From positions 682,001 to 746,000 of the forward strand of contig JAYJMM010000119.1 in the NCBI GenBank assembly GCA_037349105.1: a stretch of 64,000 bases of DNA. The letters are read 5' to 3'. How positions within the stretch are numbered: position 1 is the first letter of the stretch; each line of letters begins with the position of its first letter. The notes beneath the pieces were generated by a model, which saw only the letters and a program-made list of their open reading frames with translations, ran no database searches and was not told the origin of the DNA. Below are positions 3,310-17,295 of the stretch, piece after piece. The DNA is from Limnomonas spitsbergensis. Its lineage: Eukaryota; Chlorophyta; Chlorophyceae; Chlamydomonadales. The position numbers and the translations under genes are program-made.

Positions 3310-4562
3310 TTACCGGAGGTTCATGTTACTCCGGTCTGTCTTGGTCAGGCTGGCCTGCCCGTCAAGCTGGCCGCGAGCACCTTGGGTCGGGGCACACAAT
3401 GGGGAACGCTGCTTGCAGCTGTCAGTCAGCATGGGCAGGGCAGAGCACGGGATGGTCTGGCCTCGGTCACTAGCGGCCTGACCAGTGTCAGCCCACATCT
3501 GCCGAATCTCCCACTCCCCAATCACATGAGCATGCACGAAATGGGTTGCATCAGGCAAAGTCTGATCCTCAAACTCAAGTGGCTCGCTTGGGTCCTCGCA
3601 GCGGGAGCCCATCTCTAGAACAATGTCATCTTGCTCTAGACCCTGACCCTCAAAGAGCGGGTCTCGTCTCTGGAATCTTGACTCATCTGTCAGAGATTTT
3701 GTGGGGGTCCCCCCCACAATTGTGAATGACACCTCACCTTGGGTGCGCAAACCACACAACCTTGTGGCCATATCTGAGGAGGCCTCATGCGGCCCTCGTG
3801 GTTCCTTGTACTACATCTCATTGCTTTGTATGGTTTTCCTTCCACCAGGGTCATGAGGATGGAAGTCAAAGAGCACGGTGTTGAACCAACTGTCCAACCC
3901 CGCATCTAGGGCGTTGTCGGCATGGCCTGGACTTACGGAACCCGGTAGATCACCGTCAACTCCACGCTCAGGCCTTTCACACCTCGGGTCAATGGCAGAC
4001 TCATGCATGGGCCCTCCCTCTGTGCACCGCACACTGCTGGCATCATGCAACAAGATAGCAGTCGGCACCTCACCTAGCGGGGTGCTGGTTGGCTGGCTGC
4101 CTGTCTGTCTCACGTCAGGCACACAAGTGGGGACCACAGCTGACGCACTCGAATCAGAGGCCGGGACCTTGGTGTGACCCTCTAGGTGCTCACCTTCCCT
4201 CTTCTCCAACCTCATGGAGGTGGGCTGCAAATGCGCATGGAATTGCATGGGCTGCGCACCTTCTGGCAGACGTGCATGGCTATGCATGGGCTGGGCAGAT
4301 TCATGCACCGCATAATGTGCAATGATGGCGGGAAGTGTGCCTGTATGGCTACGCATGGGCGCAACCCATGTTAGTATGAGCCGAGCTAGCGTGCCATCAA
4401 TGTCGTCATCGCACATGGGAAGCGTGTCATGCTCGGTAAGATTGAATGCCTCCTCAAAGACGTTATGCCCCTCCAGGAAATGGCTTAAGGTAATAAACTC
4501 TCCCATGTATCCTGGCCTGGTATGTTGTGCTATGAATCGCATGCCCTCTTTGGCACTACACA
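3310..4562 (-). pseudogene. 3' part of the older element's ORF, with an in-frame stop
   Basis: The frame continues from the segment at 16134 (...VVCSAKEGMRF), runs through a conserved-looking stretch (GEFITLSHFLEGHNVFEEAF) and then a His/Ser/Pro-rich low-complexity region. A TAG at 3811-3813 interrupts it; the same frame is open again down to 3310. The stop may be a decay mutation. No domain was recognised. Confidence 0.5.
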
Positions 4563-4566
4563 CTAC
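4563..4566. repeat. Target-site duplication, left copy (CTAC)
   Basis: CTAC abuts the first TG of A1 and is repeated at 16134-16137 after the terminal CA of B2. If the right end is placed one base earlier, the duplication becomes 5 bp (ACTAC); the restored target sequence is the same either way. A 4-5 bp duplication is typical of DDE integrases and not of tyrosine recombinases. Confidence 0.85.
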
Positions 4567-5299
4567 TGTCACGACGTATGACTGCACCGTGCGTTTGACT
4601 GCGCCAACTGCTTTTTCGGTTGGAAGTTATGTGTGAACCTGAACAAGTGTGTTTGCCGTCTAAGAGGATCCCGAACTGGGTTCTTTTACTTTTTCTTTCT
4701 TACCTTGATCTCACGGCCTTCAATAGACTCTTAACGTTTCCAGCTATTGTTCCTGATTATCGATCTGCAAGTTAATCGTCAATCCAAGTCTTACTAAGGG
4801 GAAACTGGCAGAGCAGCTAGGCCAACAGCGACCCTATAAGCATCAACAAGTCTCCTGATACGAAGCTGGCAGAGCATTTAGGCCAACAGTCGACTATCTG
4901 CAGCAATTAGAGTTATTCCTGCCTCTTAACAAGGCATATCTCCAGCCTTACAGCTGGATATTACCACCAACCCACCATCACATCTCCAATCTACAGCCTT
5001 TCCTTTGGCTCCAAGTCGATCATCTGATTCATCAGAGCTATCTTCAATCACCAGAAGTCGCCAAGCAAGCGATTCATCACAACAGATCAACGGCCACATT
5101 CGCCCAAGATCGTCCCAAGAAACCTATAAGTACCTCAAGTGTCGAGGCTTTACGAGATCTTAGTTGTCAACAGTATCGAAGAAGTCCAGGTGAAGTAGCA
5201 AGAGCTATCACCTGTTATCGAGCTGATTTCACTGAGTTACAGCAGTGGATCGAGAAGCTCTTACTATAAGCTCTGTAAGAGTTTATTAGTACTTGTTTA
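4567..5299 (+). repeat. Terminal repeat A1 of the young element
   Basis: 733 bp starting TGTCACGACG and ending ACTTGTTTA. It differs from A2 by a 4-base insertion near 5162 and a few substitutions. It contains CTATAAG boxes (for example near 4834 and 5125) that could act as TATA elements, and a TGTAA at 5274-5278. It is followed directly by the leader, with no B sequence. Confidence 0.9.
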
Positions 5300-5313
5300 A
5301 GAAAGAAAAAGTC

Positions 5314-5335
5314 CGATTAGTCGCACCTCTAATCG
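5314..5335 (+). promoter_or_regulatory. Conserved leader hairpin after A1
   Basis: A 7-bp perfect stem (CGATTAG / CTAATCG) with an 8-base loop (TCGCACCT), 14 bases after A1. The older element has a hairpin at the same place (16532-16553, minus) with stem CGACTAG / CTAGTCG and loop TGGCACCT. One stem pair has changed on both sides (T-A to C-G), which suggests selection for the RNA structure. A role in packaging, priming or translation is possible; the loop of the older copy begins TGG, as primer-binding sites often do. Confidence 0.6.
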
Positions 5336-5392
5336 ACTGTAGCGGAAATCGTTCGTGTCAAGAGCGATAAAAAGGTGAAGGGGGGGAGCCAA

Positions 5393-8347
5393 ATGGCTGA
5401 TAAAGATCCCCAGATTGCTAAAGAGGTGGATAAGGATAGCATCGCTACCCGGACCAGGGCAGCGATAGCAGCCAAGGCTTCTTCAGGAGCTGATCAAGGT
5501 GCATCTTCTGGCTCTGCAGTTCTGCCAGTGAAAGTCAGTAGTGCATGGGATCTAATGTATGCCAAGGCTGGAGACAAAGAAAGGGTGTTGCTGGACAAGC
5601 TAGCGGACAAGCATGCCGCAGTGAAGCTTGCGATGAATACTATTTCATATAACCTTCCCCCAGAGCAGTACAAGGCAGAGTTTGCCAAGATCACCAAGCT
5701 GGAGGATGAACGAAAGGCTATTATCAATCAGGGATTGATCGAGTCGCCAAGAAAAGTGGAAATGGCTTTCACGAACGACGCAACTGCAGAGAAAGTAATG
5801 TGGCCAGTCAACAACCCTGTGTTTGATCACTTCAGTAATCAACATACAAGATACGCGTCTTCTGGGACGCCGTCTAAAATGACGCAGGTTACCCTACTTG
5901 CAGAACAGATTGTTCTAACTGAGGTTGATGAAGGGTCTCAGTCAGGGTCCGCTACGTCAGTGGCCGCGCCACAGAGAGCACCTGAACAGTCTCCTGCTGT
6001 GCACGTGTCAATGCCTTTTGCGGTGCATGAGCCCATGGCGCAGAATGCACCAGTGCATGTGCCTGTTGCGGACATCCCAGTATTCGTGCCTGTTGCTGCT
6101 CCCGCCTCTGTCCCTCCCTCCAATGCTGCGCCTATTCAGGGTGCATCTGTGAGAAGAGAAGGTCATGGTGTGGAATCTGGATCATCACGTCCGCCACCGC
6201 CGCCACCGCCGCCACCGCCGCCGCCGCCGACGCAAGTCCCTGCGAGGTCGGCTGGACAGACGCATAACGTACCAGTCTACCCACAGTCTGGACGATATGA
6301 AGATTCTGTGCCGCGGATGCAAGGTTTGGCGTCCGTGTCGGAAGAGCCTGAAGGTGAAGGATCTGGGGGAAGTACCGGGGATGATGTCACCGCTGGAGAA
6401 CCTCAAGAACAAGGTAACCGTTTCACGGGACCTGCTGCATCACAGTCGTTTCATACGGCTGCGGGCACTGAGCATTCCAATTGGAATACTCCTGTCACTC
6501 AGGGTCTAGGTGGTTCTGGTCTGGATAGCTCCAGGGTTAGGGCAGTCCGTGATAGGGCGGCGCTTGCCCAGAGACTGCTACTGGAATATGATCGCCGGCA
6601 GCAAGGCGAGGATGCAGCTAGAACCGCTGCAATGATCATTGAGCCCCTGCGGGCAGGCACCAGAGGTACGGCAGCTGCACCGTCCCAGGAACGCAGCTAT
6701 CAAGAGACGTCTCAAGAGGACCAGAGTAGGTTCAGGTCTGCTCAGCAGGTACCTAGAGAGCATCCATGGAATGGGTTTCCACCTGTGAGAGATTCTAGTC
6801 AGAATCAAAGAGAGCAACGGTTCTCTGGCCAAGGTCAGGGCACCAATCAGGGTCAAGAGCATGATCAACATCAAGGTCAGTCGCAAGGGCAGGGCATGAA
6901 TCAGAACCTGCGGTATGGACATCAAGACCGAGGTGAGTTCCACGGAGGTGGGACAGGAACTGGCTATAGTCAAGGGCTAGCAGGAGGTAACCAACCACCT
7001 AATGGTGGACCACCATCGGGTGGGGGTCAGCCTCCCGGTAACAGATGGGTGTCAAGACATGGTGTGTTGTACGGGTCAGTAGACCCTGCCAGAAGCCAAG
7101 TTCCTGCAGGAGATGATCCTGGTGGACGCCCTGGTTCAGAGAGTGCCACACCAGGACCAGTAAATTGGCTGACTGATGTCAAGCTAGATGGGAAGACTGT
7201 GATTGACTCGTCCAGGGTTGTTGAGTTCTCAGCGACTGAGAGCATTATCTCTCACAGGATATGGGACCGATCACTCAGGTTGTTCTGGGGGAATAACGTG
7301 CACATGCTGCACGATGCTGTGTCTGCCCAGGTGAGCATCATCATGAGCACTATTCTGCCAGCAGGGGTAGCTTTTCTCAAGAAGCACTTCGCAGAGCTAG
7401 TGTATTTGTGCCCCAGTGCAATGCCGCCCATGATGAGAGCCATTGAGGGCAGGGACGGCAGTACCAGGAATGATTTCCTGCAGGATGGCACTCAGACCAT
7501 CATGGGGAACATGAGGAGGAATAAGATGATCCTGATGGGGGTCGAGGAGGCTGGGGTACGAGAGTACGACCCTTATCCATTACAGGATGAGCCCTACAGC
7601 TTTATTGAAGCCCTGTTGATGGTAGCCAAGCGCTACCTCAACGTTGCAACATCAGCTGAGTTGGCCATTTGGACCCAGGGCTGCATCATGGGTAAGCAGA
7701 ATCAGCTTGACAGGACGGTACTTGTCAGCGAGAGCCCCAGGCAGTTTGGGATCAGGTGTCTGTCAGTTTACTCAGCGTTTCAGGGGTCTAACAAGATCGC
7801 TTACAATGGGACGATTGAAAGGACATCTATCATTGATGTGATCATGCGTGGTGTACCAGTGTACCTCCAGGAGGTGTGTGAGAGAGAGCTTCAGGGCTTG
7901 GGTGTTGAAGATGACAACTTCAGAGTCCAGGCAAGTGTGATCATTGAGGCCATGCAGAATGCCTATGAGTACCGTGTGAGGACACAGGTCAGGAAGGGTA
8001 TCAGGTATGAGGACCTGACTGCAGAGGGAAGCAAAGATGTTGGAAGAAGAAACCAGAATTCTGGTCAGCATGCTACACCTCGGAGTCATGCAACTGAGGT
8101 GAGATCTAGTGCAGTGGGTTACCCTAGCACAATGCACCCGCATCGCGGCCCGAGCGCCGGGTCATCCAGGCCTTTCCAGGCTGGAAGAGGAGGAGGTGGG
8201 TACAGCAATGTGCAGAGACCAACAGGATCGGGTTACCCTTCCAACAGGCCGATGGCTGTTAAAAACTGTCAGATCTGCCACGGTGATCACTACCTGGATA
8301 AATGTGACCAGTTGCCTGCGTTCCTCGCGTCGGCAGCAAGGGGTTGA
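5393..8347 (+). CDS. Gag-like polyprotein with zinc knuckle
   Basis: The structural protein of the young element, expected to form the particle and bind the RNA. The start is the ATG at 5393 (MADKDPQ); the frame is open 18 bases upstream but without another ATG. About 984 residues. The first ~550 are low in hydrophobic residues, with a poly-Pro run (about 6190-6228) and Gln/Gly-rich stretches. A compact capsid-like region follows (from about residue 610; RLFWGNNVHMLHDAV ... YSFIEALLMVAKRYL). The C-terminus is Arg/Gly-rich and ends with one CCHC-like knuckle, CQICHGDHYLDKC (C-x2-C-x3-H-x4-C). It ends at TGA 8345-8347; the same frame is open for another 92 codons. Assignment rests on position, the knuckle and general composition. 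Confidence 0.75.
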   Translation: MADKDPQIAKEVDKDSIATRTRAAIAAKASSGADQGASSGSAVLPVKVSSAWDLMYAKAGDKERVLLDKLADKHAAVKLAMNTISYNLPPEQYKAEFAKITKLEDERKAIINQGLIESPRKVEMAFTNDATAEKVMWPVNNPVFDHFSNQHTRYASSGTPSKMTQVTLLAEQIVLTEVDEGSQSGSATSVAAPQRAPEQSPAVHVSMPFAVHEPMAQNAPVHVPVADIPVFVPVAAPASVPPSNAAPIQGASVRREGHGVESGSSRPPPPPPPPPPPPPTQVPARSAGQTHNVPVYPQSGRYEDSVPRMQGLASVSEEPEGEGSGGSTGDDVTAGEPQEQGNRFTGPAASQSFHTAAGTEHSNWNTPVTQGLGGSGLDSSRVRAVRDRAALAQRLLLEYDRRQQGEDAARTAAMIIEPLRAGTRGTAAAPSQERSYQETSQEDQSRFRSAQQVPREHPWNGFPPVRDSSQNQREQRFSGQGQGTNQGQEHDQHQGQSQGQGMNQNLRYGHQDRGEFHGGGTGTGYSQGLAGGNQPPNGGPPSGGGQPPGNRWVSRHGVLYGSVDPARSQVPAGDDPGGRPGSESATPGPVNWLTDVKLDGKTVIDSSRVVEFSATESIISHRIWDRSLRLFWGNNVHMLHDAVSAQVSIIMSTILPAGVAFLKKHFAELVYLCPSAMPPMMRAIEGRDGSTRNDFLQDGTQTIMGNMRRNKMILMGVEEAGVREYDPYPLQDEPYSFIEALLMVAKRYLNVATSAELAIWTQGCIMGKQNQLDRTVLVSESPRQFGIRCLSVYSAFQGSNKIAYNGTIERTSIIDVIMRGVPVYLQEVCERELQGLGVEDDNFRVQASVIIEAMQNAYEYRVRTQVRKGIRYEDLTAEGSKDVGRRNQNSGQHATPRSHATEVRSSAVGYPSTMHPHRGPSAGSSRPFQAGRGGGGYSNVQRPTGSGYPSNRPMAVKNCQICHGDHYLDKCDQLPAFLASAARG

Positions 8348-8350
8348 GCA

Positions 8351-8798
8351 ATGGAGGCTTTGGAGAAGGGACCGAAGACTGCTGCAGCTAAACCTGCAGC
8401 GGACGGCGCTCCTATGCCAACTGCTGCAGTAGCAAGGGCGCAGGTGGATCCAGGTGAACTGCAAAGGGCTGTGCCATATGTGTCCTTAGGGCCTGAGTAC
8501 AGGCCGGAGGCTGAGGTAAAGTTCAATCTGGACAACCACTATGCCGCGCGTGCGGTGGAGGAGGATCAGAGTGGTGTTAGGTTCTATCAACGGGACAATG
8601 GTGAGGACTACGCACGAGCACATCAATGATGCTGCCTACAGAAGCCCAGAGCTTCATGCGCATGCAAAAGAGTACAGAGGTGAGGAAGTGCACAGTGCGC
8701 AGCTAGCGCAATACAATGATGGTTGGGATGAGCCGGGTGACCCTGATCAATGCCCAGAGGTTGAAGCACAGGGATGCTTTGGCTCCAATTACAACTGA
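8351..8798 (+). pseudogene. Broken linker ORF between gag and protease
   Basis: After the gag stop the gag frame resumes with an ATG at 8351 and stays open to 8629 (MEALEKGPKTAAAKP ...). The apparent coding continues one frame over, from about 8620 (HINDAAYRSPELHAHAKEY), to a TGA at 8796-8798, and that second frame is the frame of the protease-like ORF. So a single-base shift near 8615-8625 and two stops separate gag from the protease. This could be decay, or programmed recoding (readthrough and frameshift) as in some retroelements. No domain was recognised. Confidence 0.5.
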
Positions 8799-8831
8799 CA
8801 CGGAGTACATGGCACCCATCACCTGACAGCA

Positions 8832-9806
8832 ATGGCTGCAGTATTAGGGAGTTTTCGAGATGACTTTGCTAAAAAGGGGTCTAAAATTTTTCCAGACGGG
8901 TTCCAGGGGAAATCCAGAGTCCCTGGCCCGGTTTCCAAGTTAGATACACTGGTTACGTTTTCAGCAGCCGAAGATGACTCACGCCGATCCCGCATAGTTT
9001 CTGGGGATCCATTTGTGGACAGGGGGGCAACTTCTGCTTCACGTTTTCAGACTGAAGTTCCGACCACGTTGCTCACTCATGGTCCAGGATCACGCTGGTC
9101 TGAAGTTAGGGTTCCGACGAACCGACGGCAGGGGGGGAATGAACCTCCTATATTATCTTCTGACGTTTCTCTAACAGACACTACCCAACGCTTACTGTTT
9201 GATCGATCTGCTTCACTTCGTGTGCATACTGCCGCAGAGCATGAGCCTGAATCATTCCTGGTGAGCAATCTGCCTGAACCTGACCCTGTTCGTATGAGTG
9301 CCCTCATTGCTAACGCCTCGGACATTGGTGCCTACTTCCGTTCGCTTACAGGATCATTGTTTTATTTTGCAAACCCTGAAGAGTCGCCAGGTGAGCAGGT
9401 TGGCTTGATCTTTGATGGCTGCCGAAAACAATTGCCTGCTAGGGCCATGTTAGACTTCGGGTCCAATTGCCATTTGATCACCGACAGGGAGGCGCACCGA
9501 CTGGGCATACCTGTTCTTCCATACCCCATGAAGCTCGCCACTAGTGGTGGTGTTGACACGATTAGGGGCATTACGCCTATTATCACGATTTCTTATGGGT
9601 CAGGGTCGGCGGAGCTGACCAGTGAGCACTGTTTTCTTGTCATTGCCTGGGCTCCGTCGCACTCGTTCACTGCACTGTTCGGGAACCCTGATAGCATACA
9701 TTTCAGAGCGATCCATGATGTTGCCAGAGGTATCCTCACTTTCAGACCAAACTGGTCTTCAGATGTTCTTGAGCTGCCGGTCTCGACTGTGAGATCTGAT
9801 AACTAG
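8832..9806 (+). CDS. Retropepsin-like aspartic protease ORF
   Basis: 324 codons from the ATG at 8832 to TAG 9804-9806. The C-terminal half carries the retroelement aspartic-protease pattern: an active-site-like loop MLDFGSNCHLIT (about residues 208-219), a flap-like stretch with conserved Gly residues, and a late ALFGNPDSIHF ... ARGILTFRPNW segment that matches the end of algal retroelement proteases. The catalytic triad is D-F-G rather than D-T/S-G, so activity is uncertain. The N-terminal ~150 residues are unrecognised. In a normal element a reverse transcriptase would follow; here a hairpin and a G-tract follow instead. Confidence 0.65.
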   Translation: MAAVLGSFRDDFAKKGSKIFPDGFQGKSRVPGPVSKLDTLVTFSAAEDDSRRSRIVSGDPFVDRGATSASRFQTEVPTTLLTHGPGSRWSEVRVPTNRRQGGNEPPILSSDVSLTDTTQRLLFDRSASLRVHTAAEHEPESFLVSNLPEPDPVRMSALIANASDIGAYFRSLTGSLFYFANPEESPGEQVGLIFDGCRKQLPARAMLDFGSNCHLITDREAHRLGIPVLPYPMKLATSGGVDTIRGITPIITISYGSGSAELTSEHCFLVIAWAPSHSFTALFGNPDSIHFRAIHDVARGILTFRPNWSSDVLELPVSTVRSDN

Positions 9807-9823
9807 TCTCCTACAGCACCTTT

Positions 9824-9861
9824 CAACTCTGCACGATTGCATCGTGTAGAGTTGGGGGGGG
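9824..9861 (+). promoter_or_regulatory. Hairpin followed by a G8 tract after the protease ORF
   Basis: CAACTCTGCACGAT and ATCGTGTAGAGTTG pair over 14 positions with one mismatch around a 3-base loop (9824-9854). They are followed at once by eight G and AAG. The arrangement resembles a polypurine tract, and a TGTG start follows, as at an internal LTR-like border. It could be a central priming site, a recoding or termination signal, or a scar where the reverse-transcriptase region was lost. Confidence 0.45.
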
Positions 9862-10082
9862 AAGTGTGCTGCTGATTGAGATGACACAGTATTACATATC
9901 TTCACATTACTCAATCTCCTCTGCTTCCCTCCTCCTCATTGCTGCAGATCTACTCCTTCAAGTGAGTACCAGTCGTCAAACAGCACTACACCCTGATTAC
10001 GGTGTAGTGGACTCTGTTAGTATCAGTAGTTAGTAATTGCTTGTATAATGCTGAGCACTTTGGTGCCTGTCATTTTGCGCAG

Positions 10083-10673
10083 ATGGCTATTCCGCCGCCG
10101 CGAGATAGGCCTTTGATTAGAACCTGGCTCGGGGAGCAACACCCCATAGCAGTACCGCGAGAATACTCGCGTACTTTGCACTGCTGGAGCAACGAGCTCC
10201 ATGGTGTTGATTGGCCGACATTACACAATCATCGGACCATAAATCAATTTAATCAGCTAGAAAAGCTGCCGCGTCGCCGCTGGTGGGACAATCTCGCTCC
10301 TGATGAGGCCACCGAGCATCTCTTTAAATATGCTCAGCGGACCACCAGAGCAGCCAATACTGTGACAGAGGAAATGAACGACATCTCAGCAGATATAGAA
10401 CTCCTCTGTACCGTATATAGAACACCTGCATTGCTGTACGCACTTGGAGCTGGCATCCATGGATTGGATGCAGTTTCGTGGAATGGTCCATGGGATGAGC
10501 CCAACTGGAGCCTCCATAGATGCGGCTTTGGAGTGCTGCAATGCGACAACTCTTACCCAGATGCGTTGCACTTTGTAGAGCAGCACTACATTATAGAGGG
10601 AAGGCAGCAGGTCAGGGCCAAGTGTCTGATTCTCAGAGAATTCTGGATCATGTATCAGCATCAGCGGTTCTAA
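10083..10673 (+). CDS. Unknown ORF upstream of the methyltransferase
   Basis: 197 codons from ATG 10083 (MAIPPPRDRPLIRTW) to TAA 10671-10673. The ATG lies directly after a TTGCGCAG that could be a 3' splice site. No family was recognised; the protein is rich in Trp, His and Arg and has no reverse-transcriptase motif. It lies in the same frame as the long ORF that follows, separated only by the TAA, so the two may be made as one protein by readthrough, or the stop may be a mutation. Confidence 0.5.
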   Translation: MAIPPPRDRPLIRTWLGEQHPIAVPREYSRTLHCWSNELHGVDWPTLHNHRTINQFNQLEKLPRRRWWDNLAPDEATEHLFKYAQRTTRAANTVTEEMNDISADIELLCTVYRTPALLYALGAGIHGLDAVSWNGPWDEPNWSLHRCGFGVLQCDNSYPDALHFVEQHYIIEGRQQVRAKCLILREFWIMYQHQRF

Positions 10674-13600
10674 GGGATTCGATCAATAAATTCTACACCT
10701 GTTCCTCAAACCAGCATTCTTACTGCTGTGCAAGAAGGTGTGTCATTGATTGAGCTGTTTGGTGGTATGTGCGGAGGGTTAGAATGCATGCTGAAGAATG
10801 GCATCCGCATCAACCACTATTACTATGCTGACATTGATAATGGCGCAAGGGTTTGTGCCAAACACAGACTTAAGTTGCTCATGGAGGAATATCCCAATAT
10901 TTTGAGTCATGATGCTATTTCTGACACATTCAACCAGTTGCCGCAGGATGTGTACGAAATAAATGAAAGACATCTCATTGACATTGGATGTCTTGACGGT
11001 ACCCAATGGATGCTAACAGCAGGGTTTATGTGCACTGACCTGTCTTCTGCAGGGAAACGTACAGGATTACAAGGAGAGAAAAGTTCCACATTTTTCCCTC
11101 TTATTAAAATTCTAGGATCTCTGCAGCATATGCAACAAGGGAGACGACCACCCATGTACCTCATTGAGAATGTTGCTGTACAATTTGCTATTGCAAAATC
11201 GCAGGCTATGACAGAAGGATTTCAGGAACTTACTGAGAGGCTGGGACACCCAGTATGCTTTGACGCTGTTGCTGTAGGTAGCTATGCCCACAGGCTGCGT
11301 AATTATTGGCAAAATATATGTTCCCCCGCTTCTTTGCAGTTGGTTATGATGTCCTTTGTCCGTGATGATACATTGTGCCTGACTGACATATTGGACCATG
11401 GAAGAAACCCCCGTACCTGTTTTAAAGTTAACAGGTACCCATATCATCCAGCCAATATATTGAACCAACCTCTACGAGTTTTTCCTACGATGGTTGCTAG
11501 GATTGAATCTTATGCATTTCGTCCAAATCCTGAATATGAACCTGGACTTGTTTTGGAAACTGATCAAACGGGAATTGTCACTAGACACGCTCTGACTATT
11601 CATGAGCGTGAACGTGCCATGGGATATGCAACTGACTGTACTGCTGGTAAAGACCTGATCTTTTCTGTGCGTCACAGGATAGTTGGAGGCGCTTTTGATG
11701 CAAATGCTGTCAGTTATCTGCTTGCTGTTGGAATTGCAGTTCGATTTGCAAATGTTCCACCTTCGCAGGAAATTTTTTCTGCATTCAATAACTTTCTCCC
11801 TCATTCCTTTGCCACTTCAGGACTGGAGCTGGGGGGGGATAGTGATCAGATATCTCAGCAGCTTAATCATTTATTTGCTGCTGGAGATTCCCTGATCTTA
11901 CATGCAGCTCAGTCCTTAGCGGCTGAGTTCATAGAGCAACCCATGACTCGTGAGGAAGAGTCTCATTCATTTGCAGATATCTGGTTGGATAATAATGCTA
12001 TGCAATATTTAAGGCGTACCACTGACACAATGTTGCCCATGCTGACCCCTGTAGAACGCAAGCGTCTTCAACGACGAGCTGCGCTCTATCTCTGGTCCGC
12101 TGAAAAGAATATTCTATATCGACGAATGCCAGGCGGTACAACCAAGGTGGTACCACCCCCTGGTGACCGGTTGGCACTCGTTCACAAAATGCATGTAGAA
12201 AATGGTCATTATGGCAGGCGCCGCACGACGGGGCTTGTCATGATGACTCACTGGTGGGTTGGTTTATATAACGACTGCAAAAGAGTTGTCCAGTGCTGCG
12301 AGGCCTCTGATTATACTAAAGTATCGTTTAATGCTATGCAGCCTGTTATGCATCCCTTACCCATCAGAGGACTTATGTACCGCTGGCACCTGGATCTTTC
12401 TGGTCCTTATACGGCTTCTAACCGTGGCCACACCTATGTTATGGTAGCTGTAGAAAGCTACTCTAAATGGGTTGAGGTATTTCCTATGACTGCTAAATCA
12501 TCTAAAGAAGTAGCTTACCATTTCCTGCACGGCATATTGGCACGATTTGGGGCATGCGTTGAAGTTGTCACAGACGGTGGTGGGGAGTTTCAAGGTGAAA
12601 TGGACTCGCTGCTTGTCCGTGCCATGATTGATCATAGAGTCACCAGTTCTTTCCATCCCCAAGCCAATGGGCAAGCGGAAAGGCTGGTAAAGACAGTAAA
12701 AACTGCATTATCAAGGCACTTGCACGTTTCAAGAGAGCCTCGAGAATGGGACATGTATTTACCCTGGATAGCACTCGGGTACCGAGTCACTAAGCATGCC
12801 AGCACCTTGATGAGTCCCTACCAGCTGCTGTTTTCCTGTGAACCAGTCATCCCTCCCGCTATCATGGAAAGGTTGAATGGGGATCAGACAGTGGATTACC
12901 TGGATGTGGATTCTGCTGCTGAACTTGTACTGTCCCGTTCTGAATTGCTAGCCAAGAACTGCGTGATGGTCGGCCAGAATCTTCTGGTTGCTCAACAGCG
13001 AGATACCCTGCGTTACGCAAGGCTTCGTAGTGGAGGTTACCTCCCATCAATAGCTAAGTATACTGAGGGGCAGTTTGTGTATGTGCGGGATGAGAACCGG
13101 CTGCATTCAACTCCAAGACCTTACGTGCTTCGGGTGTTTGATGTACGGCCAAGTGGAGTCATTATCCTGGTTGGTCGCAATGGGGTGACTGTGGCTGAGA
13201 ACGCTATTAACTGCGCACCATGTCATCTGCCCATAGAGGGACTCTTACCCCCATCCAAAAGATGGCAAAAGCCAGCACCAGACTTCCCTTGCCAGAGATG
13301 TCTGCTGCCTGATAATGCTAAGAAAATGATTCTGTGTGGCAGTTGTGGTCGAGGCACTCACACGTATTGTTTGGTACCACGGCTTACTACTGTCCCTGCT
13401 GGTTACTGGATTTGTGAGCAATGTAGGACTGCTGGAGCTGACGCTACTGGTGCTGCAAGACGTGATTTTGCGGCAGAACTGGAGGAACCAGCGGCCGCTG
13501 TGACAGGTTACCAGCTGCGGCCTGCTAAGCAAAAGAAGGCAGGAAGGGTGATGGGAGCCGCCAATGGCGGTGGCCTTGTTGAGGATGAAGGAGAAGGACC

Positions 13601-14540
13601 CGCTGAAGACAGGGAAGATGACGCAGATTGTCTTGCCGGGACCGCCGCAGGCGGTGCCGGAAGCAATGCGATTGAGCTTGTCGGGACCGGTGCAGTTGTC
13701 AGCAAGGAGGAAATCGCTGAGGAGGCGCAACCTGATGATCAGCGCCCTATCCGTGCATCCGTGAGAATCCGCGTCCCCAACAAGAGGTTCGAAAGCCATG
13801 TCACTCATCCTTGGGTGCCCCCAGATTTTATCAACTGGGGTGTCCGCGGAGATGCGGTGGATGCTCTCAAGTCCTTAATGCCTGGAATGTGGCGAGAGCG
13901 CGATGAGGCTGCGGTCTACTTGGGCAACAGGGTGCCGGGAGGATGGTCGTACCAACTCCACCCTCCTTCACCTCTCACCATTGAAGACAGCGACTGCAAC
14001 ACCCTGCTGGACTGCCTTGACCTATCCCTGTCCCCCAGCATTCTTTTGCTGTTCAAGGATAATGGGCAAGCCACCGGGCTTCTGCAGAACAGCCAGCTTT
14101 ACCCTTACCCTCGATCCCTCCATGTTCTTACCAATTCGGGCATCGGTGTCAACGTCCCTGCAGACTACTGTGCTGATCCGCTGCAACCCTCCACCTACGA
14201 GTTTCTGCTGCGACAGCATGGGCTGCACGTTCTTATTACAAACCCTCCGGCTGAATACGCTGATATATCCTGTGCTCTTGCGGTCAAGTACGCGCGTCAT
14301 GTGGCCTGTTGCCTAGTCACCCAAGATTTCCTTAAGTGCCATCCTGCAAGGTTTGAGTGGCTGTCCCAACTACGGAGAGAAAGGCGTCTTGTCATTTTGC
14401 AGTCTGTCAGCTTCACAGCAGGTCTGGGAGTTAACCGGTCCATTCACGGTTGCTGTAGCAATAAAGTATGGATCCTTGTGTTTGCATCGGCAGCTATCCG
14501 TGCTCGGATGATCCCACCAATGCACACGTTCATCCGTTGA
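10674..14540 (+). CDS. Fusion of DNMT3-like cytosine methyltransferase, DDE integrase, PHD finger and NPP-motif domain
   Basis: Open from the TAA at 10671 to TGA at 14538-14540; there is no early ATG, so it is probably part of a larger product. Numbering from 10728: residues ~5-345 form a C5-methyltransferase with motif I LIELFGGMCGG, motif IV GFMCTDLSSAG (catalytic Cys kept, Pro replaced by Met), motif VI ENV, a motif VIII-like AHRLRNYW and a DNMT3-like ERERAMGY. About 485-525 is the integrase zinc region, with the second Cys of HHCC replaced by Ser. The integrase core has D556, D616 and E651 (34 residues between the last two). A C4HC3 PHD finger follows at about 854-900, then an acidic linker. 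The C-terminal domain has NPPA at about 1172-1175, like motif IV of amino-methyltransferases but without the aromatic residue. No RT or RNase H lies between any of these. Predicted roles are integration, chromatin binding and possibly self-methylation. Confidence 0.85.
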   Translation, partial: GIRSINSTPVPQTSILTAVQEGVSLIELFGGMCGGLECMLKNGIRINHYYYADIDNGARVCAKHRLKLLMEEYPNILSHDAISDTFNQLPQDVYEINERHLIDIGCLDGTQWMLTAGFMCTDLSSAGKRTGLQGEKSSTFFPLIKILGSLQHMQQGRRPPMYLIENVAVQFAIAKSQAMTEGFQELTERLGHPVCFDAVAVGSYAHRLRNYWQNICSPASLQLVMMSFVRDDTLCLTDILDHGRNPRTCFKVNRYPYHPANILNQPLRVFPTMVARIESYAFRPNPEYEPGLVLETDQTGIVTRHALTIHERERAMGYATDCTAGKDLIFSVRHRIVGGAFDANAVSYLLAVGIAVRFANVPPSQEIFSAFNNFLPHSFATSGLELGGDSDQISQQLNHLFAAGDSLILHAAQSLAAEFIEQPMTREEESHSFADIWLDNNAMQYLRRTTDTMLPMLTPVERKRLQRRAALYLWSAEKNILYRRMPGGTTKVVPPPGDRLALVHKMHVENGHYGRRRTTGLVMMTHWWVGLYNDCKRVVQCCEASDYTKVSFNAMQPVMHPLPIRGLMYRWHLDLSGPYTASNRGHTYVMVAVESYSKWVEVFPMTAKSSKEVAYHFLHGILARFGACVEVVTDGGGEFQGEMDSLLVRAMIDHRVTSSFHPQANGQAERLVKTVKTALSRHLHVSREPREWDMYLPWIALGYRVTKHASTLMSPYQLLFSCEPVIPPAIMERLNGDQTVDYLDVDSAAELVLSRSELLAKNCVMVGQNLLVAQQRDTLRYARLRSGGYLPSIAKYTEGQFVYVRDENRLHSTPRPYVLRVFDVRPSGVIILVGRNGVTVAENAINCAPCHLPIEGLLPPSKRWQKPAPDFPCQRCLLPDNAKKMILCGSCGRGTHTYCLVPRLTTVPAGYWICEQCRTAGADATGAARRDFAAELEEPAAAVTGYQLRPAKQKKAGRVMGAANGGGLVEDEGEGPAEDREDDADCLAGTAAGGAGSNAIELVGTGAVVSKEEIAEEAQPDDQRPIRASVRIRVPNKRFESHVTHPWVPPDFINWGVRGDAVDALKSLMPGMWRERDEAAVYLGNRVPGGWSYQLHPPSPLTIEDSDCNTLLDCLDLSLSPSILLLFKDNGQATGLLQNSQLYPYPRSLHVLTNSGIGVNVPADYCADPLQPSTYEFLLRQHGLHVLITNPPAEYADISCALAVKYARHVACCLVTQDFLKCHPARFEWLSQLRRERRLVILQSVSFTAGLGVNRSIHGCCSNKVWILVFASAAIRARMIPPMHTFIR

Positions 14541-15280
14541 TACATTATATACTGCTTTCTAATGACTGAATTTGACTGAGCTTTCTTCGTTTGATTTGAC
14601 AATTGACTGTGTATCTGAACGGGATTTTCACTGGATCTGGGGGGGGGTTCTGGAACATAGGATTTGAATTTAGGAATTGAATTTTCTGGTGCTGAGACTT
14701 GTGAGCTAAAGCTGGAACTGGATGACTATGAATAGTTGACTGAGAATACTTGATTTCAAATAAAATAAAAATTGTGTGCAGTTTTCAATATCTGGGGGGG
14801 GAAAGGTTGATGTGCATAATACGCACTTTTAGGGTTTAGGAGGTGTCTACCGTGAGGTGGCATTCTCATATGTCTGGCGTGAGCCTATAGGCATCCTCGA
14901 TCAGGTGTTAGGTAGGTGATCGGGAAGTTTGAGATGGTGTGGATTGGGAAACCAATTGCACTAGAGCAGGGCTGATGTAGTCTTCTGGACTTGGGGTCGA
15001 TTGGGCCCTGGGGGAAGGTGAACAGTACCGACGGTGACGAGAACTGGGCTCTTCAGCTTGAAGAGGGTCCCTTAAAGCGACTGTGGCGAGTTACGGTAAT
15101 GCGTAAAAGTCACAGCTAACGTACGCATTATATCGGAGGTTATTTTTCCTACCGGTACTTGTGCCCCATGGACTCTGGGCAGGGCCCAGGGGTGGGAAGT
15201 CTGATAACAATACGCAGTTCTCAAAACGCTGTCGTACTTGTTTATTACTGCCTCCAGTGTTTTTCGATCTGGGGGGGGAA
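14541..15280 (+). promoter_or_regulatory. 3' untranslated region with three ATCT-G8 tracts
   Basis: No ORF of note. Three tracts of eight or nine G, each preceded by (A/G)ATCT or ATATCT, lie at 14639-14647, 14794-14801 and 15271-15278. The last one is followed by AA and then B1, which starts with TG. That is the layout of a polypurine tract at the start of a 3' LTR, so plus-strand DNA synthesis probably starts at B1. The two upstream tracts may be spare or older priming sites. Confidence 0.5.
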
Positions 15281-15341
15281 TGTCTTGTGTTCTTTTCGCT
15301 TGGTGCACCCATTCCTTAGGGTGCACCCCTGTGCCGCGACA
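15281..15341 (+). repeat. Repeat B1 (61 bp, hairpin)
   Basis: It starts TGTCTTGTG and ends GCCGCGACA. It is identical to B2 (16073-16133). It contains a perfect 9-bp inverted repeat, GGTGCACCC / GGGTGCACC (15302-15310 and 15319-15327), around an 8-base loop. It is joined to A2 by two extra bases, GC. Confidence 0.9.
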
Positions 15342-15343
15342 GC

Positions 15344-16072
15344 TGTCACGACGTATGACTGCACCGTGCGTTTGACTGCGCCAACTGCTTTTTCGGTTGG
15401 AAGTTATGTGTGAACCTGAACAAGTGTGTTTGCCGTCTTAGAGGATCCCGAACTGGGTTCTTTTACTTTTTCTTTCTTACCTTGATCTCACGGCCTTCAA
15501 TAGACTCTTAACGTTTCCAGCTATTGTTCCTGATTATCGATCTGCAAGTTAATCGTCAATCCAAGTCTTACTAAGGGGAAACTGGCAGAGCAGCTAGGCC
15601 AACAGCGACCCTATAAGCATCAACAAGTCTCCTGATACGAAGCTGGCAGAGCATTTAGGCCAACAGTCGACTATCTGCAGCAATTAGAGTTATTCCTGCC
15701 TCTTAACAAGGCATATCTCCAGCCTTACAGCTGGATATTACCACCAACCCACCATCACATCTCCAATCTACAGCCTTTCCTTTGGCTCCAAGTCGATCAT
15801 CTGATTCATCAGAGCTATCTTCAATCACCAGAAGTCGCCAAGCAAGCGATTCATCACAACAGATCAACGGCCACATTCGCCCAAGATCGTCCCAAGAAAC
15901 CTATAAGTACCTCAAGTGTCGAGGCTTTACGAGATCTTGTCAACAGTATCGAAGAAGTCCAGGTGAAGTAGCAAGAGCTATCACCTGTTATCGAGCTGAT
16001 TTTACTGAGTTACAGTAGTGGATCGAGAAGCTCTTACTATAAGCTCTGTAAGAGTTAATTAGTACTTGTTTA
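15344..16072 (+). repeat. Repeat A2
   Basis: 729 bp, nearly identical to A1, starting TGTCACGACG. A frame of about 110 codons without ATG is open from about 15711 to 16018 (SRSSDSSELSSITRSRQASD ... ) and is largely kept in all three A copies, except for the 4-base insertion in A1. TGTAA at 16047-16051 lies 21 bases before the A2/B2 junction and is a likely poly(A) signal. Confidence 0.9.
16047..16051 (+). terminator. Probable poly(A) signal TGTAA at the end of A2
   Basis: TGTAA is the usual poly(A) signal of green algae. Cleavage 10-20 bases downstream would end the element RNA at about the A2/B2 junction, so the RNA would contain B1 but not B2. Confidence 0.5.
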
Positions 16073-16133
16073 TGTCTTGTGTTCTTTTCGCTTGGTGCAC
16101 CCATTCCTTAGGGTGCACCCCTGTGCCGCGACA
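16073..16133 (+). repeat. Repeat B2 (61 bp), right end of the young element
   Basis: It shares all 61 bases with B1, including the 9-bp hairpin (16094-16102 and 16111-16119). It ends ...GCGACA, forming a short terminal inverted repeat with the left end (TGTC / GACA), and is followed by the CTAC duplication. Confidence 0.9.
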
Positions 16134-16407
16134 CTACATCCAACATGCACTCCTCTGTTTTTCGGTATGCCTCCGATGTACTTGATGTCTTGAATGCCTC
16201 CACTATGGACACTTGTCCTGCTAGTTCTGCCTTGAAGAGAAGGCACATCATGCGATCTAGTTCATTGAAGTATAGGCCCTTCCTTTGATGCAATTCATCC
16301 AAGAGGTCCTTACATTCTGCACGTGACGGCTCAGTGGTGCATCCGATGTCCATTTTGGGGTAATTCGCATCTGATGTCCATTTCCTTTCCCCTATAAACT
16401 TGATCAT
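16134..16407 (-). pseudogene. 5' part of the older element's ORF, split by insertion
   Basis: The ORF starts with ATG at 16407 and gives 91 codons plus one base before the young element's right boundary. The protein is mostly soluble-looking and charged, with the segment LDELHQRKGLYFNELDRMM. No family was recognised; the position just after the leader suggests a gag-like ORF1. With the insertion and one CTAC copy discounted, the frame continues at 4562 without a shift. Confidence 0.6.
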
Positions 16408-16568
16408 ACCGCTTCCTCCGATCGGCCGACAGAAGTCGGTCGGGATCGGGAACTACTTTGCAGTACTACTCCTACAGATCTCGATTCTGACACCTTATTA
16501 TCGTCTTTTTCACGACCGAAATCGCTACAGTCGACTAGAGGTGCCACTAGTCGGGACTTTTTCTTTCT

Positions 16569-17295
16569 TAAACAAGTACTAATAAACTCTTACAGAGCTT
16601 ATAGTAAGAGCTTCTCGATCCACTGCTGTAACTCAGTGAAATCAGCTCGATGACAGGTGATAGCTCTTGCTACTTCACCTGGACTTCTTCGATACTGTTG
16701 ACAAGATCTCGTAAAGCCTCGACACTTGAGGTACTTATAGGTTTCTTGGGACGATCTTGGGCGAATGTGGCCGTTGATCTGCTGTGGTGAGTCGCTTGCT
16801 TGGCGACTTCTGGTGACTGAAGATAGCTCTGATGAATCAGATGATCGACTTGGAGCCAAAGGAAAGGCTGTAGATTGGAGATGTGATGGTGGGTTGGTGG
16901 TAATATCCAGCTGTAAGGCTGAAGATATGCCTTGTTAAGAGGCAGGAATAACTCTAATTGCTGCAGATAGTCGACTGTTGGCCTAAATGCTCTGCCAGCT
17001 TCGTATCAGGAGACTTGTTGATGCTTATAGGGTCGCTGTTGGCCTAATTGCTCTGCCAGTTTCCCCTTAGTAAGACTTGGATTGACGATTAACTTGCAGA
17101 TCGATAATCAGGAACAATAGCTAGAAACGTTAAGAGTCTATTGAAGGCCGTGAAATCAAGTAAGAAAGAAAAATTAAAGGACCCACTTCGGGATCCTCTA
17201 AGACGGCAAACACACTTGTTCAGGTTCACACATAACTTCCAACCGAAAAAGCAGTTGGCGCAGTCAAACGCACGGTGCAGTCATACGTCGTGACA
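16569..17295 (-). repeat. Terminal repeat A, copy 3 (older element)
   Basis: About 727 bp, read on the minus strand from 17295. It matches A1 and A2 of the young element over its full length with roughly a dozen differences counted by eye. It lacks the 4-base insertion present in A1. It is followed directly by the element leader, as A1 is, with no B sequence between. This shows that a 5' end made of A alone is the normal state of the family. Confidence 0.9.

Follow-up and report, generated by a model that had tools for sequence, protein, structure and literature searches.

The retroelement at positions 4567–16133 of the window, the whole 64,000-nucleotide stretch of Limnomonas spitsbergensis DNA that was analysed, is of Ty3/Gypsy type by its genes, as judged from the domain order of pol, the Pfam matches and the protein neighbours, and of split-direct-repeat type by its layout. 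Our reading, to which we give a probability of about 0.6, is that it is an LTR retrotransposon whose copies are rotated by ~63 bp relative to the predicted cDNA, with the integrase cutting at a palindrome inside the left LTR and not at the LTR ends. The order A1-genes-B1-A2-B2 described in an earlier note on this DNA is confirmed, with a GC dinucleotide between B1 and A2, and a large family usually takes this form; the length of 61 bp given there for B holds, and that of A, given as about 730 bp, is refined to ~733 bp. The interpretation offered with that layout is partly supported. The parts of the window copy are as follows.

4563–4566, no strand: left copy of the 4-bp target duplication CTAC, identical to 16134–16137; an empty-site paralogue is found in L088
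4567–5299, plus strand: A1, the 5' terminal repeat without B, first letters TGTC; common to the 54 of 54 five-prime ends read
4567–4588, plus strand: left inverted terminal sequence, presumed integrase binding site; agrees with the reverse complement of the B end at 15 of 22 positions
4688–4702, plus strand: presumed self-primer ACTTTTTCTTTCTTA, perfect complement of 5298–5312
5298–5312, plus strand: presumed primer-binding site TAAGAAAGAAAAAGT at the end of A1; a copy of it is kept at some A2/B2 junctions
5375–8347, plus strand: gag-like ORF, by position and composition, without a Pfam match
8832–9806, plus strand: aspartic-protease-like ORF (PF13650, 22.8 bits, below the cut-off of 24.3)
10041–10673, plus strand: ORF of unknown function (within the 221-aa ORF 10008–10673), also in the longer copy L089
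10728–14540, plus strand: ORF with C5 methyltransferase, integrase H2C2 and rve core, and PHD finger; four Pfam matches above cut-off
15271–15280, plus strand: polypurine tract GGGGGGGGAA, adjoining B1 on its 5' side
15281–15341, plus strand: B1, TGTC...GACA
15342–15343: GC spacer between B1 and A2
15338–15347, no strand: palindrome GACA-GC-TGTC where B1 and A2 meet, presumed internal attachment site
15344–16072, plus strand: A2
16070–16076, plus strand: A2/B2 junction, TTTA/TGTC in the window copy, variable among copies
16073–16133, plus strand: B2, the outer end, ...GACA
16134–16137, no strand: right copy of the 4-bp target duplication CTAC

Within the window copy B1 and B2 are identical (repeat search of positions 4000–17000) and A1 and A2 are 99.45% alike. 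The TGTC...GACA ends and the CTAC duplication on which the earlier note relied are both present. When the flanks are joined with a single CTAC they align with the uninterrupted paralogue in L088 over 124 bp, gap-free, at 96.8% identity, so that B2 is part of the insertion, as had been claimed, and the insertion runs from the TGTC of A1 to the GACA of B2. The element lies within an older, minus-strand member of the family (C119:678686–699295, in the window up to 17295), which has the duplication ACTC and whose 5' end is likewise an A without B. Elsewhere in the window, at ~24.4–25.4, 40.6–42.6 and 45.2–47.4 kb, there are long open frames of short tandem repeats, with units that are for example HARCSSWFGL-like or PPYLQQGLN-like; these are probably minisatellites, not genes.

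The layout was followed through the 260 Mb, in 124 contigs, of this one genome; no DNA of relatives was found in a search of genome contigs and viral contigs. All 54 five-prime ends read, with 53 distinct flanks, begin with A, none having B before A, so the A-only 5' end that had been taken for the usual state is indeed that, the older host copy included. These ends comprise 40 loci (L009 and L049–L087), all of which read flank-A-internal, the older nested copy in L001, and 4 plus 9 further ends. The 28 three-prime ends read (L001–L008, L030–L048 and L088) all have the order polypurine tract-B1-GC-A2, and 27 of them continue into at least 9 bp of B2, the minimum of 9 bp being that of L041; L048 has no B2 in its remaining 0.8 kb. 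The loci fetched were the best matches to the window's own ends and are not a random sample. Exact patterns, which miss diverged copies, occur in the genome at 93 sites for polypurine tract-B1-GC-A2 and at 199 A/internal junctions. A one-off rearrangement or an assembly error is ruled out by the 93 exact sites together with the 28 of 28 three-prime ends in the same order: the copies fetched do not mostly carry identical LTRs at both ends, and no assembly error is seen at 15281–16133, where many independent copies have the same order.

An identical 4-bp duplication flanks 29 of the 31 copies for which both ends were read. The remaining two pairs, AGTC/GGTC and CATA/CATG, each have a one-base mismatch and belong to short A-B solos. 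When flanking 4-mers are compared all against all, 22 of 1156 comparisons match, true pairs included. For part of the pairing the partner was taken as the nearest exact 5' start within 60 kb, one partner being 54 kb away; by this rule 12 of 14 flanks matched and 3 of 17 ends were without a partner. The copy at C102:287542 is excluded from the 31 pairs, its right side showing only AGA of AGAA, and no A start was seen at the fetched locus L106. Flanks are common to L004/L005, L031/L032 and L064/L065, which are duplicated segments. In 8 of 9 valid pairs, A1 and A2 from the same copy share at least 99.4% identity, with 97.1% for the copy on C109, whereas the mean identities of A between copies are 94–96.5%; this higher likeness within a copy is as for LTRs made in one cycle. 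Two of 11 pairs were set aside, that of C116, where the pieces hardly overlap, and that of C4, which was mis-paired and has its matching 3' end at 1357537. The copies on C117 and C82 are close relatives (own A1/A2 99.86%, cross 99.59%). Recombination after insertion, acting on the copies of an ordinary LTR element, could be read from the solo A-B and single-B forms, which show that some may occur; as the source of the layout it is hardly credible, since the same permuted order is found with intact 4-bp duplications in independent copies and an unpermuted B-GC-A 5' end in 0 of the 54 read.

The combination of split direct repeats with a DDE integrase pointed out in the earlier note is borne out by the H2C2 and rve domains in the window ORF. 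No RT was found in a Pfam scan of the ORFs of the window copy; RT is present in L089, a longer copy of ~16.6 kb on C109, where a single ORF has the order RVT_1, RT_RNaseH, DNA_methylase, H2C2 and rve and a protease-like ORF lies upstream. L089 has the order protease-RT-RNase H-integrase of Ty3/Gypsy pol, with the protease match below the Pfam cut-off. The nearest protein to its RT region is from Chlamydomonas eustigma (62% identity), with further neighbours in Haematococcus lacustris, Pleodorina starrii and C. reinhardtii. No Pfam match was obtained for the gag-like ORF. The 221-aa ORF, which sits between the protease-like and the RT/methyltransferase ORFs and has a counterpart at 6998–7654 of L089, matched no solved structure at an E of 1 and no Pfam entry above cut-off. 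The target duplication is short and constant in length, 4 bp in 29 of 31 pairs, as in Ty3/Gypsy elements, whose complete identical LTRs at both ends are absent here. The split direct repeats A1-B1-A2-B2 are those of DIRS, PAT and Ngaro elements, in which a tyrosine recombinase replaces the DDE integrase; in the ORFs scanned, from the window copy and L089, no tyrosine recombinase (phage-integrase domain) was found, and target duplications, which to our knowledge those elements lack, are present. Ginger-like elements are DNA transposons with a retroviral-type integrase, and such an assignment is ruled out by the RT and RNase H of L089.

In LTR elements the ends of the LTR are marked by the polypurine tract and the primer-binding site. 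Because the polypurine tract adjoins B1 and a self-primer match ends A1, the LTR is predicted from the sequence to be B-GC-A, extending from AATGTC at the start of B to TTTA at the end of A. The 15-nt match between 5298–5312 and 4688–4702 has a chance expectation in A1 of 2.4e-6, and at least 13 nt of it are retained in 35 of 38 parsed ends (40 surveyed, 2 unparsed), while the sequence a few bases beyond the primer-binding site differs between subfamilies. At the sequence level the presumed primer-binding site is thus complementary to the element's own predicted 5' RNA, as in Tf1-type elements, through this 15-nt self-match. A tRNA primer was rejected, no TGG being seen by eye after A1, and the self-primer fits instead.

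The integrated ends of the element, where A begins and where B ends, meet within the predicted LTR as the palindrome GACAGCTGTC. The inverted sequences flanking GACA-GC-TGTC match at 15 of 22 positions, a level attained by one of 716 windows of A, that at 4567–4588. The spacer within B-GC-A is constant, being GC in 26 of 26 loci and in 99 of the first 100 of 174 B-GC-A sites listed, a total that includes a tandem array on C111. This array, at C111:199763 to at least 219267, has at least 21 B-GC-A sites spaced 917 or 1014 bp apart and is a satellite-like array derived from the terminal repeat of the element. Relative to the predicted cDNA, the provirus would have the first ~63 bp shifted to the other end.

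In contrast to the constant B1-GC-A2, the junction between A2 and B2 is variable. Among 59 junctions with intact neighbours (60 rows, one of them listed twice; two rows of C83 share junction and flank, and some flanks are given by few letters), 11 have no insert, 22 have A, 10 have AA and 16 have other inserts, found once each. The insert AA is what TTTA and AATGTC, the two predicted cDNA ends, give together. Outside this pattern, A2 or B2 is truncated in L034, L036, L037, L041, L044, L046 and L047, and filler is present in L030, L033, L035, L046 and L088. The remnants of B2 with matching duplications are as short as 9 bp in L041 and 20 bp in L037 (CATG and CAGC). With A2/B2 labels assigned by hand, a junction is common to the nearest relative in 0 of 26 cases, compared with a mean of 1.05 after shuffling, and L045 has a different A2/B2 junction from L047, although 701 bp of the two are identical. 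A constant B1-GC-A2 beside a variable A2/B2 points to end joining of two cDNA ends each time, and the A2/B2 junctions look like two such ends joined anew in each copy. The suggestion that the element is an intermediate between LTR and split-repeat elements is therefore not upheld, the coding order being that of Ty3/Gypsy and the layout being better explained by an LTR element permuted at integration, because the A2/B2 join is not inherited and differs even between near-identical copies.

The same junctions bear on replication in the manner of DIRS and PAT elements, where the RNA would include B2, a B1-A2 splint would close a circle and A-genes-B-A-B would be inherited whole. The layout equals that of PAT elements, given as A-genes-B-A-B in passages of PMC4157794, and that of SymbioDIRS-Dnmt3, given as A-coding-B-A-B with a tyrosine recombinase in passages of PMC5890265 that record methyltransferase domains in the DIRS group too, and it would also fit that no mirror form of the insertion is seen. 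This route is nevertheless very improbable, the element having a DDE integrase and 4-bp duplications in place of a tyrosine recombinase, none of which is encoded in the ORFs scanned; inheritance of A2/B2 in the DIRS manner is itself ruled out by the variable junctions, with 0 of 26 common to the nearest relative.

Some junctions carry more than the two ends. That of L030 retains the primer copy AAGAAAGAAAAAGT, in agreement with an RNA start and cleavage at the primer, and those of L098, L099 and L100 keep the primer copy or nearly so, with L099 and L100 then entering inverted A. The junction of L100 extends into inverted A upstream of the primer site, which makes an RNA start at the primer tentative. 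In L088 there is a filler of ~1 kb, made of inverted A and internal sequence, that switches at the 15-nt primer complement and belongs to the older minus-strand copy hosting the window element. In L035, at ~2400–2650, the final B is preceded by a repeat of part of B and of the A end. At C38:3303001–3304201 two 3' ends, facing tail to tail, are connected by way of their A2 repeats, which resembles a joining of two cDNA ends. The added nucleotides and primer copies at A2/B2 would fit equally with a permutation made by reverse transcriptase, jumping from the end of A2 to a B template so that B2 would stand at the end of the linear DNA before an otherwise ordinary integration, and the L088 filler resembles a strand switch at the 15-nt complement. 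We regard this explanation as improbable: by itself it leaves unexplained the exact 5' start at A, inside the predicted LTR, and without a cut at the palindrome it does not account for the exact GACA end of the product.

Retroviruses and LTR elements are understood to integrate by joining both ends of a linear DNA to the target. For the Limnomonas element we infer another course from the polypurine tract, the primer match and the variable junction. The RNA would start in A1 and end in A2, with the genes and B1 between, and would be copied by self-primed reverse transcription into [B-GC-A]-genes-[B-GC-A]. The integrase would then cut both strands of GACA-GC-TGTC in the left LTR, ~63 bp from the end of the DNA, which would yield two processed ends at once, one opening A1 and the other closing the clipped B. 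These two ends are the ones that border the 4-bp target duplication in the inserted copies, and their insertion would leave the free end of A2 and the free start of the clipped B to be joined by the end joining of the host, giving A1-genes-B1-GC-A2-B2. The choice of the left palindrome may reflect its nearness to the end of the DNA, which is guesswork.

The order of cutting and joining could also be the reverse, with end joining first closing the cDNA into a 2-LTR circle (A2 to the left B) that the integrase then opens at the B-GC-A palindrome. Such a circle accounts for the permutation of the ends as well as for a palindrome that is constant beside an A2/B2 junction that varies; a palindrome of this kind is cut by the integrase of PFV (passages of PMC1180852), and the single-B copies would be 1-LTR circles. 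The circle would have two equal palindromes, however, so that about half of the insertions should be of the mirror form A/B-GC-A-genes-B, and none is seen among the 54 five-prime ends read. In addition, 96 of the first 100 of 199 A/internal junctions are without B-GC-A within 1.2 kb in front, and the other four are 3' ends with a primer copy. The search for the mirror form covered these 100 junctions, 78 of the 100 listed B-GC-A sites (C111 excluded) and 65 of the 93 polypurine tract-B1-GC-A2 sites; a mirror form at a few percent may be compatible with this exact-pattern search, as diverged copies escape it. In a circle, junctions with just 9 or 20 bp of B2 would lack much of the attachment site when integration began; they are easier to explain by a trimming of the free end of B after its other end had been joined to the target. 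Both the missing mirror form and these remnants favour cutting before joining, and the circle is in our view unlikely.

Single-B endings make up ~8 of 101 exact sites. At nine sites matched exactly, the base after B is not G; one of these, on C28, is called a spacer mutant from listings of the first 100 of 376 and the first 100 of 174 places. The 5' flank was read in four of the eight single-B copies and matches for those on C37 (CCAT), C38 (CTTC) and C109 (TTGT) and not for that on C100 (ACCA/ACCT). Cutting at both palindromes could produce these A-genes-B forms, as could 1-LTR circles or a later recombination of B1 with B2; as they need a second route or later recombination, their count weighs slightly against a single route. 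In L092, at C100:478869, B1 is followed by ACCTGCCC and then by a partial B that stops before ACCTGTCC, with the same target letters after the two B ends. Returning to cutting before joining, we think it probable that in this lineage the integrase attachment site has shifted from the ends of the LTR to an internal palindrome, so that one double-strand cut provides both inserted ends and the break inside the provirus is left to the end joining of the cell; DDE integration together with host repair would then produce a split-repeat layout without a tyrosine recombinase. The A2/B2 junctions would in that case record how host cells join DNA ends, and the split-direct-repeat layout alone is insufficient for filing an element under DIRS, PAT or Ngaro.

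A keyword search of the open-licence literature found no description of such an element, and known systems share separate parts of it. In Tf1 and Tj1 the LTRs are complete at both ends and the insertion is unpermuted, unlike in the Limnomonas element, whose 5' end starts inside the predicted LTR. The self-primer arrangement is like that of Tf1 and Tj1, whose primer-binding site complements an upstream stretch of their own 5' repeat according to passages of PMC4600332. KnitGypsy-Dnmt3 of Klebsormidium, described in passages of PMC5890265 as a Gypsy element with a captured C5 methyltransferase, likewise has a Gypsy-type pol with the methyltransferase in the Pol ORF; the split, permuted terminal repeats set the Limnomonas element apart from KnitGypsy-Dnmt3 as described there. 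With PAT, TOC, Ngaro and SymbioDIRS-Dnmt3 the element has the order A-genes-B-A-B in common, and in place of their tyrosine recombinase, as given in the passages cited above, it has a DDE integrase, 4-bp duplications and a copy-specific A2/B2 junction. In PFV, the passages of PMC1180852 describe integrase cutting the palindromic junction of 2-LTR circles on both strands to leave 2-nt 5' overhangs, and by analogy the GC spacer between the two attachment ends would give the same 2-nt geometry. The PFV palindrome is formed by circularisation, whereas that of the Limnomonas element pre-exists in the predicted LTR, where it would be cut. In 1984 Panganiban and Temin engineered SNV to carry an internal LTR-LTR junction and claimed that the virus integrated by way of it, a claim later abandoned (as told in passages of PMC11054761). 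The Limnomonas element resembles this engineered SNV in having an LTR-LTR-type junction inside its DNA and, on our reading, permuted ends such as were claimed then, and differs from that artificial construct in that the palindrome is a natural part of its predicted LTR. If our reading is true, the element is a natural case of the integration route proposed for retroviruses in 1984 and then abandoned, and the family would be a natural, high-copy system for testing the chemistry of integration through an internal palindrome.
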